Origin: Mobilibacterium timonense
GTDB lineage: Bacteria; Bacillota; Clostridia; Peptostreptococcales; Anaerovoracaceae
Assembly: GCF_900155555.1 (NCBI RefSeq)
Contig: NZ_FUHN01000008.1
Span: forward strand, 256,117-320,116
Direction of reading: 5' to 3'
Length of the DNA stretch: 64,000 nucleotides
Position 1 is the stretch's first letter, and each line of letters opens with the position of its first letter. Shown here piece after piece: positions 1-54,753 of the stretch. The position numbers and the translations under genes are program-made. Below the pieces are notes generated by a model that worked only from the letters and a program-made list of their open reading frames with translations, made no database searches and was not told the DNA's origin.

Positions 1-14
1 GTGATCTTTAGTGT

Positions 15-750
15 AAAAAAACCACCGGCTAAGCCGGTGGAGTAAGAAGCTTTAGCTTCAAGAAAAAACCTCCTGTGATATCATGAATGAGGCTTCCAAC
101 CGCACTCATGTAACAAAGGAGGAATAAATCGATGGGTAATATTACCAAAACCGACATCAATAGTTTAACACATTCGAAGTGGCGGTGTCAGTATCACGTA
201 GTGTTTGCGCCGAAGTACAGGAGACAAATTATCTACGGAAAAATAAAAGAGGATATTGGCAAGATACTTAGGCAGTTGTGTGATCAGAAAGGCATAGAAA
301 TAATAGAAGCGGAGTTGTGCCCTGATCATGTACACATGCTGATATCAATTCCGCCAAAATACAGCGTATCGCAAGTGATGGGATATCTGAAGGGAAAAAG
401 CTCACTGATGATATTCGACAGACATGCGAATATGAAATATCGGTATGGGAACAGGCATTTCTGGTGCCGTGGCTATTATGTCGATACAGTTGGCAGAAAC
501 AAAAAGGCAATCGCAGAATACATACGAAACCAACTGCAAGAAGATATCGCAAATGATCAATTAACATTGAAGGAGTACATAGACCCGTTCACGGGTAGCA
601 AGAATACGAAGGCATAATAAAAAGCGCCCTTAGGCGCAGCCGGAAAATAGAGATGCGGTTGGCAGTCTATTTCGGTGCGTCTTAAGACGCCTGCAAGTAA
701 CAGGCCCTTTTAGGGCAAGGACAAACCACCAGTTCAACTGGTGGTTATGA
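15..750 (+). mobile_element. IS200/IS605-family insertion sequence (tnpA only)
   Basis: A single Y1 transposase gene is bracketed by subterminal hairpins, as in IS200-type elements that lack terminal inverted repeats. The left hairpin has 9-bp arms at 22-30 and 32-40 (CCACCGGCT/AGCCGGTGG). The right hairpin has 11-bp arms at 724-734 and 736-746 (AACCACCAGTT/AACTGGTGGTT). Additional small hairpins lie after the gene near 625-715. No tnpB is present. The element sits inside a nitroreductase gene whose reading frame enters the right end and stops there. The exact ends are approximate because the empty target site is not visible. Confidence 0.85.
132..617 (+). CDS. tnpA: IS200/IS605 family Y1 (HUH) transposase TnpA
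   Basis: This 161-aa protein is the single-strand-specific transposase that cuts and joins the IS ends through a phosphotyrosine. The HUH metal motif is visible as PDHVHML (His66, His68), and the catalytic helix as YIRNQ (Tyr130 with Gln134 as third metal ligand), the same spacing as in IS608 TnpA. Length is usual for the family. The start follows AAAGGAGGAATAAATCG with good spacing. All catalytic residues are present, so the element may still be active in cis. It is the only gene of the element. Confidence 0.95.
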   Translation: MGNITKTDINSLTHSKWRCQYHVVFAPKYRRQIIYGKIKEDIGKILRQLCDQKGIEIIEAELCPDHVHMLISIPPKYSVSQVMGYLKGKSSLMIFDRHANMKYRYGNRHFWCRGYYVDTVGRNKKAIAEYIRNQLQEDIANDQLTLKEYIDPFTGSKNTKA

Positions 751-6569: not shown

Positions 6570-6927
6570 TGGTGGAGACGGTGAGAGTCGAACTCACGTC
6601 CAGAAACACATCCGAGAGACTTTCTCCGAGCGCAGCTGATAATTTGTGTCTCGCCTTACCTGCCGTCTGTCAGCAAACTGCAGTCAGGCCAGCCCGTGAT
6701 GTTCCTGAGCTGCCGGGCTTTCACTCAGGAGTTTCCTGCATATCTTAGACCGGTTATGTCACCTGCAGGTGAGTGGCGCCGGCCCGCGGGGCTGAACTAA
6801 GCAGCCAGTGCGAAATTGCTATTATTATTCTTAGCGTTTATATTTAGGTTGCCACTTTTTACGTAGACTTGGCGACTACGGCTCGCTTATCCCTGTTCAA
6901 CATCCCTGTCGAAACCATTACGTCCCC
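6570..6927 (-). ncRNA. ssrA: Transfer-messenger RNA (tmRNA)
   Basis: The 358-nt RNA rescues stalled ribosomes. The tRNA-like ends are visible: 5' GGGGACG pairs with 3' CGTCTCC followed by encoded ACCA, next to the T-arm GAGAGTCGAACTC on the plus strand. The tag frame reads A-K-N-N-N-S-N-F-A-L-A-A and TAG, located near 6800-6840, with the ALAA degron expected for ClpXP targeting. The resume codon GCT follows the usual unstructured A-rich stretch. A consensus-like promoter lies upstream and two hairpins downstream. Confidence 0.95.
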
Positions 6928-6953
6928 ATGTACTGGAACTTTTGCAGTACAAC

Positions 6954-6982
6954 AGTATACGTTTTTCCGGGAAAAAGGTCAA
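6954..6982 (-). promoter_or_regulatory. Sigma-A promoter of tmRNA
   Basis: On the minus strand TTGACC (6982-6977), 17-bp spacer and TATACT (6959-6954). The start point would fall near 6946, leaving about 20 nt of 5' leader to be removed by RNase P at 6927. Confidence 0.8.
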
Positions 6983-7132
6983 CTGGTTTTTTGAGAAAAT
7001 CCGGGTATTTGGAATGGATACGGGTGTTCCAGGAGTTTTTTCCGGCGCTCCGGAGGATCCTGTTCGCTCGAATGCGATCGTTTGTATCCGTGCTACTGCC
7101 TCCCGTACCACTACATCACGCGCCTCGATCTC

Positions 7133-35910: not shown

Positions 35911-36062
35911 AAAACGCCCTTAGATAGCTTGCAGAAAGCAGCGAGGTTTAGCTGCGGCACACGAGATGGTCCGCTTATTGCTGCTTCCTCTCGGACCTGA
36001 CAAGGTTCACGGTATCCCGTTGCGCAGGACCCCGAAGCTCTGCAAGCTATCTAAGAGCGCCG
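35911..36062 (-). ncRNA. ffs: Signal recognition particle RNA
   Basis: The conserved SRP domain is visible on the minus strand: TCAGGTCCGAGAGGAAGCAG and the following GCGGACC, forming the Ffh-binding hairpin. The long terminal stem pairs TTAGATAGCTTGCAGA (5' side) with TCTGCAAGCTATCTAA (3' side), and the 3' arm runs into a T5 run that ends transcription. About 150 nt, intermediate between the E. coli 4.5S and the B. subtilis scRNA. It sits before dnaX as in many Firmicutes. Confidence 0.92.
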
Positions 36063-51371: not shown

Positions 51372-51683
51372 TTAGAGCTTGATCTCTATATCGATTCCAG
51401 CAGGCATATCGAGCTTTGTGATAGCGTCGGTAGTCTTTGTGGAAGCGTTAGTGATATCGATCAGACGCTTGTGAGTTCTCTGCTCGAACTGCTCTCTGCT
51501 GTCCTTGTACTTGTGGACAGCCCTGATGATGGTCACGACTTCCTTCTCTGTTGGCAGAGGGATAGGGCCGCTTACATCAGCGCCTGTTCTCTTCGCGGTC
51601 TCTACGATCTTGGCAGCGGACTTGTCCAGCAGTGCGTGATCATAGGCCTTGAGTCTGATTCTGATCTTCTGTAATTCGCTCAT
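51372..51683 (-). CDS. rpsJ: 30S ribosomal protein S10
   Basis: The 103-aa protein has [20 protein letters not shown] and the loop [20 protein letters not shown]. It is the first gene of the S10 operon, with GGAGGTAACACTA before the ATG and a leader of about 270 nt. Confidence 0.98.
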
Positions 51684-51955
51684 TAGTGTTACCTCCTGTG
51701 ATTTGTACGGTTTTCGCTATGCTTGTACAGGACCTCGTTTTCTGAATTCCGCGATCTTATTGTTTCTGCGCTTCTGAAAAAGTGTTTTCGTCTCTCGTCA
51801 TTCCCCGGGAGGCGTCTTACACGTCTTCGTGCGTTTCCTCAATCATGACGCAGAATAAAAAAAGCGAACCCCTTCGCCCCCATCTGGTGAGGACAATTCT
51901 CCACGGAAATTATCTGTTAGCCCAGTAACTTCCCGCTTCATCGCCTTAAACAAGC
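51684..51955 (-). promoter_or_regulatory. Structured 5' leader of the S10 operon
   Basis: About 270 nt separate the promoter from rpsJ. The leader contains a near-palindromic GGAGAATTGTCC segment (51891-51902), then a short terminator hairpin with seven T, then about 170 nt to rpsJ. An autoregulatory attenuator, for example responding to L4, would have this form. No T-box or known riboswitch consensus was recognised. Confidence 0.5.
51856..51877 (-). terminator. Intrinsic terminator inside the S10 leader
   Basis: On the minus strand GCGAA (51877-51873) and TTCGC (51868-51864) close a GGGG loop, followed by seven T. The stem is short, so it may only be effective with the upstream structure, as expected for attenuation. 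Confidence 0.6.
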
Positions 51956-51990: not shown

Positions 51991-52298
51991 CAGTTTTTTA
52001 ATATTTTTTCGGGCCAAAACAGCGTTTTTCTTGTTTTTATTTCCAGTCATTGCAAGGTGTTCACGCCCGTTCTGTCATACACGGTTTCACGCGTTTCCTC
52101 GCGGTGTGTATTTTACCGGTTTTTCCTTGAAAAATCAAGGGCTGCGCCCTTTTCTCACGCATCGCGTATTTTACCGGAGACCCGCCAGCTCCGCCAGGCG
52201 AAGTCCTTTTTTGTGAGATCCCACACAGCAGCTCCCGGTGCATACCTATAAATACACAAAAAAACATATTTTCGTGCGCCACGCACGATTATTTGAGG
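51991..52298. other. Gene-free spacer between the S10 promoter and the large RNA unit
   Basis: AT-rich with no credible reading frame. It holds a 12-bp direct repeat GTATTTTACCGG at 52108-52119 and 52166-52177, a CCTTGA/TCAAGG hairpin (52125-52140), an overlapping GGGC-TGC-GCCC hairpin followed by TTTT (52139-52153), and a CGTGCG/CGCACG inverted repeat (52273-52287) just before the TATAAT of the RNA unit. Confidence 0.6.
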
Positions 52299-52304
52299 TA
52301 TAAT
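52299..52304 (+). promoter_or_regulatory. TATAAT -10 box of the large RNA unit
   Basis: A perfect TATAAT lies seven bases before the expected RNA start near 52311. No good TTGACA lies 16-18 bp upstream; a CGTGCG/CGCACG inverted repeat occupies that place and could be an activator site. Confidence 0.5.
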
Positions 52305-52310
52305 GCAGAC

Positions 52311-53165
52311 AAGAAAAGAAGAGGAGCTCAAACAGAGATAGAGCAAATCTGATTTTGGGAGGTGGGTCCAATGACACACTAACACCTCAGCAACCATCAA
52401 GGCAGACCGGCAGAATCTCATAGACGGTCAGATGGAAGCAGCCTTCCCTTCGTAGCGGGGGTCGGGTCGATGGTCCAGACGGGCGGCAGTCGAAGTTCAG
52501 GCGTGAGGCAAAACGCATGAAGGTGTCGAAGCCGCAGGCGAAACGCCGGAGGAGCGTTCGCGAAGGCAGTCGGGCCCTGGATGTATTCCAGGTACAGACA
52601 TCGGTTCAGCAGACCGGGTCTGGAGACACGGTTCCGGGAGTGAAGGGACGATCCCAAGGAGCAAGAGCCTAAGGTCGGGGACGAAGTCCAGTTCCGGGAA
52701 GCATTTCTGGCAGGTCGGTGGAGATCCTGAGTACGTCAGGAACGGTCTTCCGGCAGAGAAGATGAATTTCTCCCGCCGCTCTCCCGAGTGAGAGACAGGG
52801 TGTGGGAACCGCAGCGATCAGTTGCATGATCTGAGGCCGGTGCAGATTCGGGGCGAGGGCCACGGGATGCGGATGGATAACAGCCGAGGAGCAACAACTT
52901 AATACGAATTGGTTATCACTATTGAACAGGATACGGTAAAGCGAAGGCGTCATCGGTATGACGCAGTAATCTGCAGGGTGAGTGAGTTGCACAGCAGGAG
53001 AACAGCCACAGGTCACCATGAAGCGGAAGTGAGCGCGTATCAGGTTATTACTAAGGATGCTGAGGATTCAGCTGAAAGAGTAAGATGAGAAAGAAAGAAG
53101 TGTAAATGGAGCCAGTTAATTAGCAGGCGGTACGTCCGAGAGTTGGAAGTACCGCCTTTGTTTTG
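52311..53165 (+). ncRNA. Candidate large structured non-coding RNA, about 850 nt
   Basis: The stretch has no credible ORF in six frames, is GC-richer than the spacer and is full of strong local hairpins: GAGGTG/CACCTC (52359-52388), CCTGGA/TCCAGG (52576-52592), GGAC-GAA-GTCC (52679-52689), TCCTGA/TCAGGA (52725-52741), GATCA/TGATC (52816-52831), GCGTCAT-CGGT-ATGACGC (52947-52964) and GCTGA-GGAT-TCAGC (53059-53072). Several loops are GNRA- or tetraloop-sized. It is bounded by a TATAAT and an intrinsic terminator, so it forms its own transcription unit. Size and style recall the ornate large RNAs (OLE, ROOL, GOLLD). I could not match RNase P RNA, group I or group II cores. Class is unknown. Confidence 0.65.
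53125..53165 (+). terminator. Intrinsic terminator of the large RNA unit
   Basis: AGGCGGTAC (53125-53133) and GTACCGCCT (53149-53157) make a perfect 9-bp stem followed by TTGTTTTG. The convergent murE-like gene ends 58 bp further on. Confidence 0.85.
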
Positions 53166-53223
53166 CCTTTTTCTGTTTAATGGTCCTTCGCTGGGCCCTT
53201 TGATCTTACATCAGATCCTCACA

Positions 53224-54753
53224 TCACATTCCGGCGGGATGCCTCATGTCATACTCCCGGATCTGCTTTTCCACGTGATCCACATCGGACGGACAGTCAA
53301 CGTACTCCTGGCCGATCTTCTGCCGGGTCTCCCGGCCCTTTCCGGTCACCAGGATCATCGCGGGCCTGCCGCTCTCCTCCGCCTGACGAAGGGCTTTTTT
53401 TATGCCAAGGCCTCTGTCATCCACGATCTCGTACGGGCAGTCCTGCTTAGTGACGTACCGGGAGATCTCGCGGGAGATGTCGTCGGCCGACTCTTTCCCG
53501 GGATCCTCGGGAACGAGGAAGACCTTGCTGGAATACTTTCCGGCTATTCTTCCGAGGTCCGCCCTCCTCTCCAGGGCCTTTCCGCCCGGACAGCCAAATA
53601 CGGTATAGATGCTGCGGTCCTGCCCTTCTTTTTCCACGGTCTCGAAGAGCTTCCTGAAGCTGAGGCCGTTGTGGGCGTAGTCCACCACGGCGACGATCCT
53701 GCTGTCGGCTGTGGTGAAGATCTCCATGCGGCCGGCGGCGCGGGCCTGGATGAGGCCTTTACGCACGCAGTCCTCAGGGATGCCGCAGACTCCGGCGGCG
53801 GCGATGACGGCCATGGCGTTTTCAACATTGAAGAGTCCCAGCATTCCGATGGCAAATTGTCCGCTGATATTTTTTCCTTTTACTTTGAATGAGTAACCTT
53901 CTCCCCAGTTCTCAATGTCGTAGCCATAGTAGTCGGCGCCGGGATCTTCAATGCTGAACGTCGTCACATCGCCTGCGCTGTGGGCGGCCTCGAGAGCCAT
54001 GTTCGAGAAACCGCTGTCGAGGTTTACCACGGCGTGGTCGGTCATGGGGAACATCTTCATCTTGGATTCGAAGTAGTCCCCGAAGTCCTTGTGCTCCACG
54101 CTGCTGATGTGATCTCTGGAAATATTCAGGAAGACCCCCACATTGAAGCGGAGGCCGTCCACTCTATGATATTTGAGGGCCTGGCTGGAGACCTCCATCT
54201 CCATCCAGGTTATCCCGTTTTCGACTGCCCTGGCCATGTGCCTGTGGAGCTCCACCGCCTCAGGGGTGGTGAGGCGGGATTCTTCGACTGTTCCTCCGTC
54301 GTAGTAGCATATGGTGGACAGGAGCCCGCTTGGCTTTCCTCCGGTCACCTTCATGTACTCGTCCACCACGGACTTCATGAAGCACGTGCTCGTGGACTTT
54401 CCCTTTGTCCCCCCGAAGGCTATGATATTCAGGTTCTTCCAGGCGCTGCCGGAAAACTTGTCCGCCAGCACCGCCATGGCCTTCCGGATGTCTGAGACGA
54501 TGATGCCCGGAACGGGAACATCATAGCTCTTCTCGGATACGTAGGCCACGGCCCCCAGGTCCACGGCGTCCCGGAGGAACTTTTCCCTGAAGCCCGCACC
54601 TTTACAGATGAAGAGAGTACCTTCCTTCACTTCGCGGGAATCGAAGGTCAGGAAAAGGACTTTTTTTCTCCTGAAGGGCTCCGGGACGCCGGTGACCAGG
54701 AGGTCAGTAACCTGAAGGATCTTTTCGTATTCGTCTATGGAAAAAGCTGTCAC
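53224..54753 (-). CDS. MurE-like UDP-N-acetylmuramyl peptide ligase
   Basis: The 509-aa ATP-dependent Mur ligase has the N-terminal UDP-binding domain (LTFDSREVKEGTLFICKGAG), P-loop FGGTKGKSTST (113-123), TTPEAVELHRHMARAVENG, the central SSQALKYHRVDG and the C-terminal domain beginning AGRMEIF with DYAHNGLSFRKLFE. The DNPR motif that binds the third amino acid in most MurE proteins is replaced by EDPGKE, so the added residue cannot be predicted. It stands alone, away from a dcw cluster, and may be a paralogue. GTG start behind AGGAG. Confidence 0.85.
   Translation of the reverse strand: MTAFSIDEYEKILQVTDLLVTGVPEPFRRKKVLFLTFDSREVKEGTLFICKGAGFREKFLRDAVDLGAVAYVSEKSYDVPVPGIIVSDIRKAMAVLADKFSGSAWKNLNIIAFGGTKGKSTSTCFMKSVVDEYMKVTGGKPSGLLSTICYYDGGTVEESRLTTPEAVELHRHMARAVENGITWMEMEVSSQALKYHRVDGLRFNVGVFLNISRDHISSVEHKDFGDYFESKMKMFPMTDHAVVNLDSGFSNMALEAAHSAGDVTTFSIEDPGADYYGYDIENWGEGYSFKVKGKNISGQFAIGMLGLFNVENAMAVIAAAGVCGIPEDCVRKGLIQARAAGRMEIFTTADSRIVAVVDYAHNGLSFRKLFETVEKEGQDRSIYTVFGCPGGKALERRADLGRIAGKYSSKVFLVPEDPGKESADDISREISRYVTKQDCPYEIVDDRGLGIKKALRQAEESGRPAMILVTGKGRETRQKIGQEYVDCPSDVDHVEKQIREYDMRHPAGM

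Follow-up and report, generated by a model that had tools for sequence, protein, structure and literature searches.

A probable free-standing gene for a large structured noncoding RNA beside the S10 operon in the genus Allobaileyella

The stretch of DNA analysed here (64 kb at its full length, called the window) probably harbours a free-standing gene whose product is a structured noncoding RNA. The unit is about 860 nt long, has up to now been found only in the genus Allobaileyella and is equipped with its own -10 box and intrinsic terminator. The observations behind this reading are that the place and the ends of the unit are conserved, that it bears no signs of coding, and that a shared fold is kept by compensating base changes. 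The candidate RNA gene is an isolated noncoding unit flanked by the divergent rpsJ of the S10 operon and by a convergent gene of the Mur-ligase family (Table 1), and it is present in single copy in the 2.09-Mb host genome, which belongs to a same-genus relative of Allobaileyella (formerly Baileyella) intestinalis. It was compared with the copy in a sister genome (G001), the only same-genus relative among the genomes searched, which we infer to be Baileyella intestinalis RF-744-FAT-WT-3 (NZ_VUNB01000006.1), now Allobaileyella, of the family Anaerovoracaceae.

Table 1. Positions in the window of the candidate RNA gene, its parts and its neighbours
Feature	Position	Strand	Basis
AT-rich, partly conserved tract 5' of the promoter; candidate UP element	52242..52271	+	two-species alignment; interpretation inferred
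Perfect palindrome TCGTGCG-NNN-CGCACGA in the -35 region	52272..52288	.	arms kept and spacer changed in sister species
TATAAT (-10 box) inside GGTATAATGCAG	52299..52304	+	sequence; same letters in sister species
Large structured noncoding RNA (putative), ends approximate	52306..53168	+	folding, two-species alignment, column shuffles, hand-matched helices
5' conserved block A, 60 nt, 4 differences between species	52358..52417	+	alignment
Variable multi-branched domain closed by helix H2 (52411-52418/52722-52729)	52411..52729	+	RNAalifold, folding, hand-matched helices
Three-helix hairpin arm around invariant UGAGGCAAAA	52483..52535	+	RNAalifold, column shuffles, hand-matched helices
Conserved domain B: nested helices H6-H10, invariant AUCA in H10 loop	52750..52840	+	column shuffles, hand-matched helices
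Conserved strand: 3' side of H1 (partner 52394-52398), CGAGG, ACAACUUAAUACG	52872..52906	+	alignment, column shuffles, hand-matched helices
3' domain closed by long-range helix H13 (52907-52919/53100-53117)	52907..53117	+	RNAalifold, folding, column shuffles, hand-matched helices
Intrinsic terminator, stem 53125-53157 then U-rich tail	53125..53172	+	sequence, folding, column shuffles (53090-53166, z -6.1), hand-matched helices
Neighbour: S10-Clostridia leader of divergent S10 operon	51874..51949	-	34.2 bits, gathering score 35.1
Neighbour: rpsJ, ribosomal protein S10	51372..51683	-	ORF list; name presumed from the sequence and the position in the operon
Neighbour: convergent Mur-ligase-family gene	53224..54753	-	Pfam PF08245, PF02875

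The S10-Clostridia leader scored just below its gathering score and is probably a true leader given its position before rpsJ. The Mur-ligase protein has the middle and C-terminal Mur-ligase domains, and no N-terminal Mur-ligase domain was matched in Pfam. The sole gene that ARAGORN found in the window was a tmRNA (6570-6927, minus strand, tag AKNNNSNFALAA), 45 kb from the RNA unit; a permuted-tmRNA match below cut-off at 6797-7059 partly overlaps it and is probably spurious. The bacterial small SRP RNA was found at 35937-36036 on the minus strand.

The sister genome carries the unit at the same place, as seen from synteny and from near-identical blocks with strong divergence between them. Pieces aligned by blastn were 76% identical over 52811-52916 and 83% over 53092-53161, and identity in the middle of the unit fell to 41-47% in 150-column windows with gaps counted as differences. 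This pattern of divergence between the species is RNA-like. The preliminary description had seen no credible ORF here, and this was borne out in several ways. The longest ORFs within the unit are of 116 aa (minus strand) and 59 aa (plus strand), and none of seven ORFs tested had a Pfam match at E<=1. The alignment with the sister copy has 14 gaps (one terminal), nine of which (8 of the 13 internal ones) are not multiples of three, the internal gaps including ones of 1, 2, 4, 5 and 20 nt. Substitutions over 203 gap-free columns were spread over the codon positions as 24/27/28, with no third-position bias. The plus strand of the unit is rich in purines (61% A+G vs 45.5% in the whole window).

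The claimed TATAAT box is present and identical in the sister species. The consensus scanner reported no -35/-10 pair at this promoter, its sole pair lying on the minus strand at 52138-52110, and the -35 region has no recognisable -35 sequence; its place is taken by a perfect 7-bp inverted repeat. Both arms of this palindrome are identical in the sister species and the spacer differs (CCA/TGA), as expected of a protein-binding site. With up to two mismatches the palindrome occurs once per genome in both genomes, i.e. only at this promoter, whereas the reversed control matched 5 and 2 places in the two genomes, each counted on both strands. The palindrome is thus a possible operator of a DNA-binding regulator. 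At the other end, the terminator is conserved in the sister copy, was absent from the scanner's list and was recovered by folding. It is a real terminator but not the perfect one described earlier, since it consists of a 9-bp stem, one G.A mismatch and a 5-bp stem. Just 5' of it lies a mini-ORF, AUG-GAR-CCA-GUU-AAU-UAG (MEPVN-stop, 53106-53123, plus strand), with one synonymous difference between the species; this pattern needs no translation to explain it because the same bases make the 3' strand of helix H13.

Folded alone, the window copy was more stable than its dinucleotide shuffles (z -2.6; none of 20 shuffles matched it) and formed eight or more helices, each of 4-7 pairs and with a loop of 3-5 nt. 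The preliminary description had counted at least seven perfect local stems, and that many short helices are indeed predicted, but the sister species lacks some of them, e.g. GGAC-GAA-GUCC. The evidence is therefore not the number of local stems but the conserved, compensated helices. The long-range helices H1, H2 and H13 close the 5' multi-branched part and the 3' domain, and the latter holds hairpin H11/H12 around the conserved CAGGAGARCAG.

RNAalifold run on the two-species alignment kept 148 pairs, with 32 changed on both sides. Because the program optimises exactly such double-changed pairs, controls were used beside it. When columns were shuffled within conservation classes and each element was tested on both strands, the strongest plus-strand signals came from 52474-52540 (plus z -5.9, 0 of 1000 shuffles as good; minus z -2.2), 52728-52889 (plus z -5.1, 0 of 400; minus z -1.9), the terminator at 53090-53166 (plus z -6.1, 0 of 1000; minus z -4.9) and the hairpin at 52972-53022 (plus z -4.5, 1 of 1000; minus z -4.0). 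The good minus-strand scores of the last two are usual for near-symmetric hairpins. Region 52392-52556 gave z -2.9 on the plus and -0.2 on the minus strand, columns 640-740 gave -3.2 and -3.3, and two of the eight stretches shuffled in this way showed nothing on either strand. A tiling with 15 windows gave plus-strand z from -5.48 to +1.79, and none of 100 shuffles was as good in four plus-strand windows and one minus-strand window; the latter covers columns 1-150 (minus z -2.4). Columns 1-150, 51-200, 251-400, 351-500, 551-700 and 701-850 showed no plus-strand signal in this tiling.

A second control projected the fold of one species on the other. The fold computed from the sister copy only, projected on the window, had 30 double changes vs 19.3 expected, a count equalled in 1 of 2000 permutations, and its other projections had 25 (19/2000) and, at a higher threshold, 20 (67/2000) and 17 (21/2000). 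The fold of the window copy projected on the sister copy stayed at the level of permutation, with 13 double changes vs 14.7 expected (1610/2000), 21 vs 17.8 (356/2000), 14 (251/2000) and 12 (795/2000), so the single-sequence window fold or the alignment is partly wrong. Three of the four reverse-complement controls were null and the fourth reached 113/2000 on double changes and 21/2000 on broken pairs. In 18 hand-picked helices, 56 of the 88 pairs are unchanged, 14 have one-sided and 17 two-sided changes and one is broken; since the helices were selected, this tally is descriptive and no test by itself. The clearest element is the arm at 52483-52535, whose 17 pairs comprise 8 unchanged ones, 7 with two-sided and 2 with one-sided changes, and no broken one. 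Helix H13c (CAC/GUG to CUC/GAG) requires a two-base realignment. All of this comparative evidence comes from two sequences, which are too few for statistics of the R-scape type.

Searches for further copies returned a narrow distribution. With blastn the unit was matched in 3 of 196 genomes, its own included, and one of the three is a chance match (G040, 84% over 43 nt, inside a 712-aa ORF). The search for homologues in related Clostridia that the preliminary description had proposed thus yielded the sister species and, beyond it, only this match by chance. Of 349 family genomes, just the two Allobaileyella contained the 20-nt block A pattern without a mismatch. A covariance model of domain B (R1) had hits in 2 of 345 genomes of the family and in 3 of 383 of the order, where one hit was chance-like, and a model of block A (R2) matched 5 of 316 family genomes, three of them chance-like. 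Weak matches to these models were found in G147 (model R1, order genomes, no further similarity), in G220 (inside a 320-aa ORF) and in G023 and G112 (about 20 bits, chance-like). In the genomes searched, only the two Allobaileyella matches are real; distant relatives may be missed because the model searches used Infernal's stricter filters on overlapping genome sets with metagenomes outside them.

Some looser matches were also seen. With up to three mismatches, CAAGGCAGACCGGCAGAATC, the block A pattern, was found in 86 of the 349 family genomes, in 84 of them with 2 or 3 mismatches; its reversed control matched visibly fewer genomes, and the excess perhaps reflects codon usage. For 18 block A loci that were fetched (L016-L033), blastn found little beyond the pattern. 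Matches to a 19-nt block in a Dehalococcoidia and a Ruminococcus MAG are by chance, with at most about 25 nt in common with either copy. Promoter-like matches in G318 and G375 had nothing in common with the unit beyond the promoter stretch; the frame behind the match in G375 is presumably that of a glutamate dehydrogenase. Among viral contigs a first pattern had no match, a second had one, inside a 313-aa phage ORF, and a third had two, which scored 10.7 bits with model R1; one of these patterns carried a base found only in the sister copy and was therefore blind to the window's own form. Neither the phage collection (50,697 records, blastn) nor the plasmid collection had a match. Lastly, rpsJ was located in 29 of 31 relatives' genomes, and upstream of it nothing resembling the RNA was found at 24 other loci (19 oriented and 5 taken on the plus strand; the survey ran without L040, L052 and L062, and some upstream stretches were short because contigs end).

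If the gene is transcribed, its RNA would fold into a large globular particle, either a protein-binding scaffold or an RNA oligomer, by analogy with OLE, ROOL and GOLLD. The invariant unpaired stretches may then be docking surfaces for a protein, for another copy of the RNA or for the ribosome, and the unique palindrome in the -35 region would be the site of a dedicated regulator. On this analogy a particle or scaffold appears to be the most likely role, and it fits better than a seed-type sRNA because the RNA is free-standing, structured and ORF-less, leaves invariant stretches unpaired and has long-range helices that close its domains.

Block A offers a different lead. In both species it contains GGAGG (52358-52362), an 8-nt spacer and AUG-ACA-CAY-UAA (52371-52382), the sole difference in this ORF being synonymous. 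A candidate local hairpin, GAGGUG/CACCUC at 52359-52364/52383-52388, has its 3' strand starting in the window right where the mini-ORF ends. The RNA could therefore be a translation-linked regulator in which the strong ribosome-binding site and the mini-ORF (MTH-stop) recruit a ribosome, and a switch of CCUC between the local hairpin and a distant partner strand would report translation or ribosome supply. When pairing is limited to 250 nt, the hairpin's pairing probability is 0.74 for the window copy and 0.70 (4 pairs) for the sister copy; RNAalifold pairs CCUC with a distant GAGG instead, and the S10 operon adjoins. However, without the span limit the hairpin is listed for neither species and the distant partner of CCUC differs between them, and a U-A pair of the window's stem is replaced by C.A in the sister copy. 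When this RNA was dinucleotide-shuffled 2000 times, 6.1% of the shuffles also had such a ribosome-binding site with a short ORF, the whole of block A is conserved anyway, and there is no downstream coding in cis. The translation link is a lead rather than a finding, and as an explanation of the RNA it is unlikely. The bolder version, an ornate 860-nt RNA machine beside the S10 operon that is engaged by ribosomes, with the ribosome-binding site and three-codon ORF, in a hairpin of the SD sequence with an anti-SD-like strand, as its sensor and with a dedicated operator, is improbable.

It is also quite unlikely that the RNA is a long base-pairing sRNA that recognises target mRNAs with its invariant unpaired stretches as seeds. 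Such a role would suit ACAACUUAAUACG, which is conserved yet has no predicted conserved structure (region 52853-52926, z +1.1 in column shuffles). However, when a 12-nt complement of it was sought in the two genomes with up to one mismatch (shorter or gapped seeds fall outside this search), it was found in the RNA gene itself in both and at one further site in the sister genome only, i.e. at no shared target. A seed also has no need of many compensated helices.

The preliminary description had proposed either a member of an ornate known class or a new one. Both copies were searched with the covariance models of Rfam 15 under permissive filters (E<=10). In and around the window copy there were four matches, to S10-Clostridia (other strand, outside the unit), to IMES-5 (RF02995) and two weaker ones; IMES-5 reached 23.4 bits (E 0.081) against a gathering score of 96.1 and was not listed for the sister copy. 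The sister copy had four other matches, all far under their cut-offs, and no family recurred in both copies. OLE (RF01071), ROOL, GOLLD, HEARO, RNase P and group I/II introns, for most of which this search had been suggested, gave no match in either copy at E<=10. This agrees with the earlier failure to see RNase P or intron core motifs, and an RNase P candidate lies elsewhere in the genome (G000:C3:129696-130025, E 1.1e-9, 40.2 bits with the type-B model, cut-off 97 bits). The RNA might still be a strongly diverged OLE, ROOL, GOLLD or similar RNA that covariance models miss, and its size range and multi-domain architecture are in keeping with this. Against it are the absence of a match at E<=10 in either species despite permissive filters, a housekeeping context that is neither phage nor tRNA island, and the silence of the OLE model in both whole genomes (0 of 2), a weak point as all 14 control genomes were silent too. 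This reading is improbable as well. Of the two proposals, membership of a known class found no Rfam match, whereas a new RNA is favoured by a second species, in which the unit is syntenic and its helices are compensated. The earlier interpretation as a self-contained, large structured noncoding RNA is the best reading and is partly supported; the class would comprise one genus with two species within the searches made. With no credible match in Rfam 15 and no RNA in the titles of Baileyella papers, the RNA is treated here, within these searches, as undescribed.

That the unit is a decayed protein gene or an untranscribed spacer, as its restriction to two species, its poorly conserved middle and its still putative transcription might suggest, is highly improbable given the 9 of 14 gaps not in threes, the lack of codon-position bias and of Pfam matches, the compensated helices and the conserved -10 box and terminator; the first of these possibilities had been raised in the preliminary description.

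Few bacterial RNAs of conserved fold are this large. The named and deposited isolate of the genus, the housekeeping context and the genome-unique promoter palindrome make expression, structure and partner of the RNA favoured here directly testable. OLE is about 600 nt long and has the partner protein OapA. In the accounts drawn on here it is a large structured RNA found in Bacillota, some of them anaerobes, and its RNP is linked to ribosomal protein bS21. Like it, the present RNA is large, structured and from Bacillota; it differs in length and has no Rfam match to it. ROOL is described in PMC12286853 with an example of 659 nt, from phages and prophages and often near tRNA islands, and a 520-nt lncRNA on a megaplasmid of L. 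salivarius (PMC5643018) is apparently counted as ROOL there. Like ROOL, the RNA reported here is large and structured; unlike it, it has no Rfam match and was not found in a phage or prophage. GOLLD, often longer than 800 nt, is likewise assigned by PMC12286853 to phages and prophages, in many cases close to tRNA islands, and is bound by ribosomes in pull-downs. The resemblance to GOLLD lies in size and in a complex fold with more and less conserved regions, and the difference lies in the lack of an Rfam match, the place beside the S10 operon and the lack of a blastn match in the 50,697 phage records. The phage, prophage or tRNA context of ROOL and GOLLD was thus not found here, where the neighbours are housekeeping genes and the tmRNA is 45 kb away. 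According to the same source OLE is a dimer, whereas ROOL and GOLLD form nanocages; what the three do biochemically is described as unknown or unsettled. By the tests done the Allobaileyella RNA is a member of none of them, but by analogy it may work like OLE, ROOL or GOLLD.
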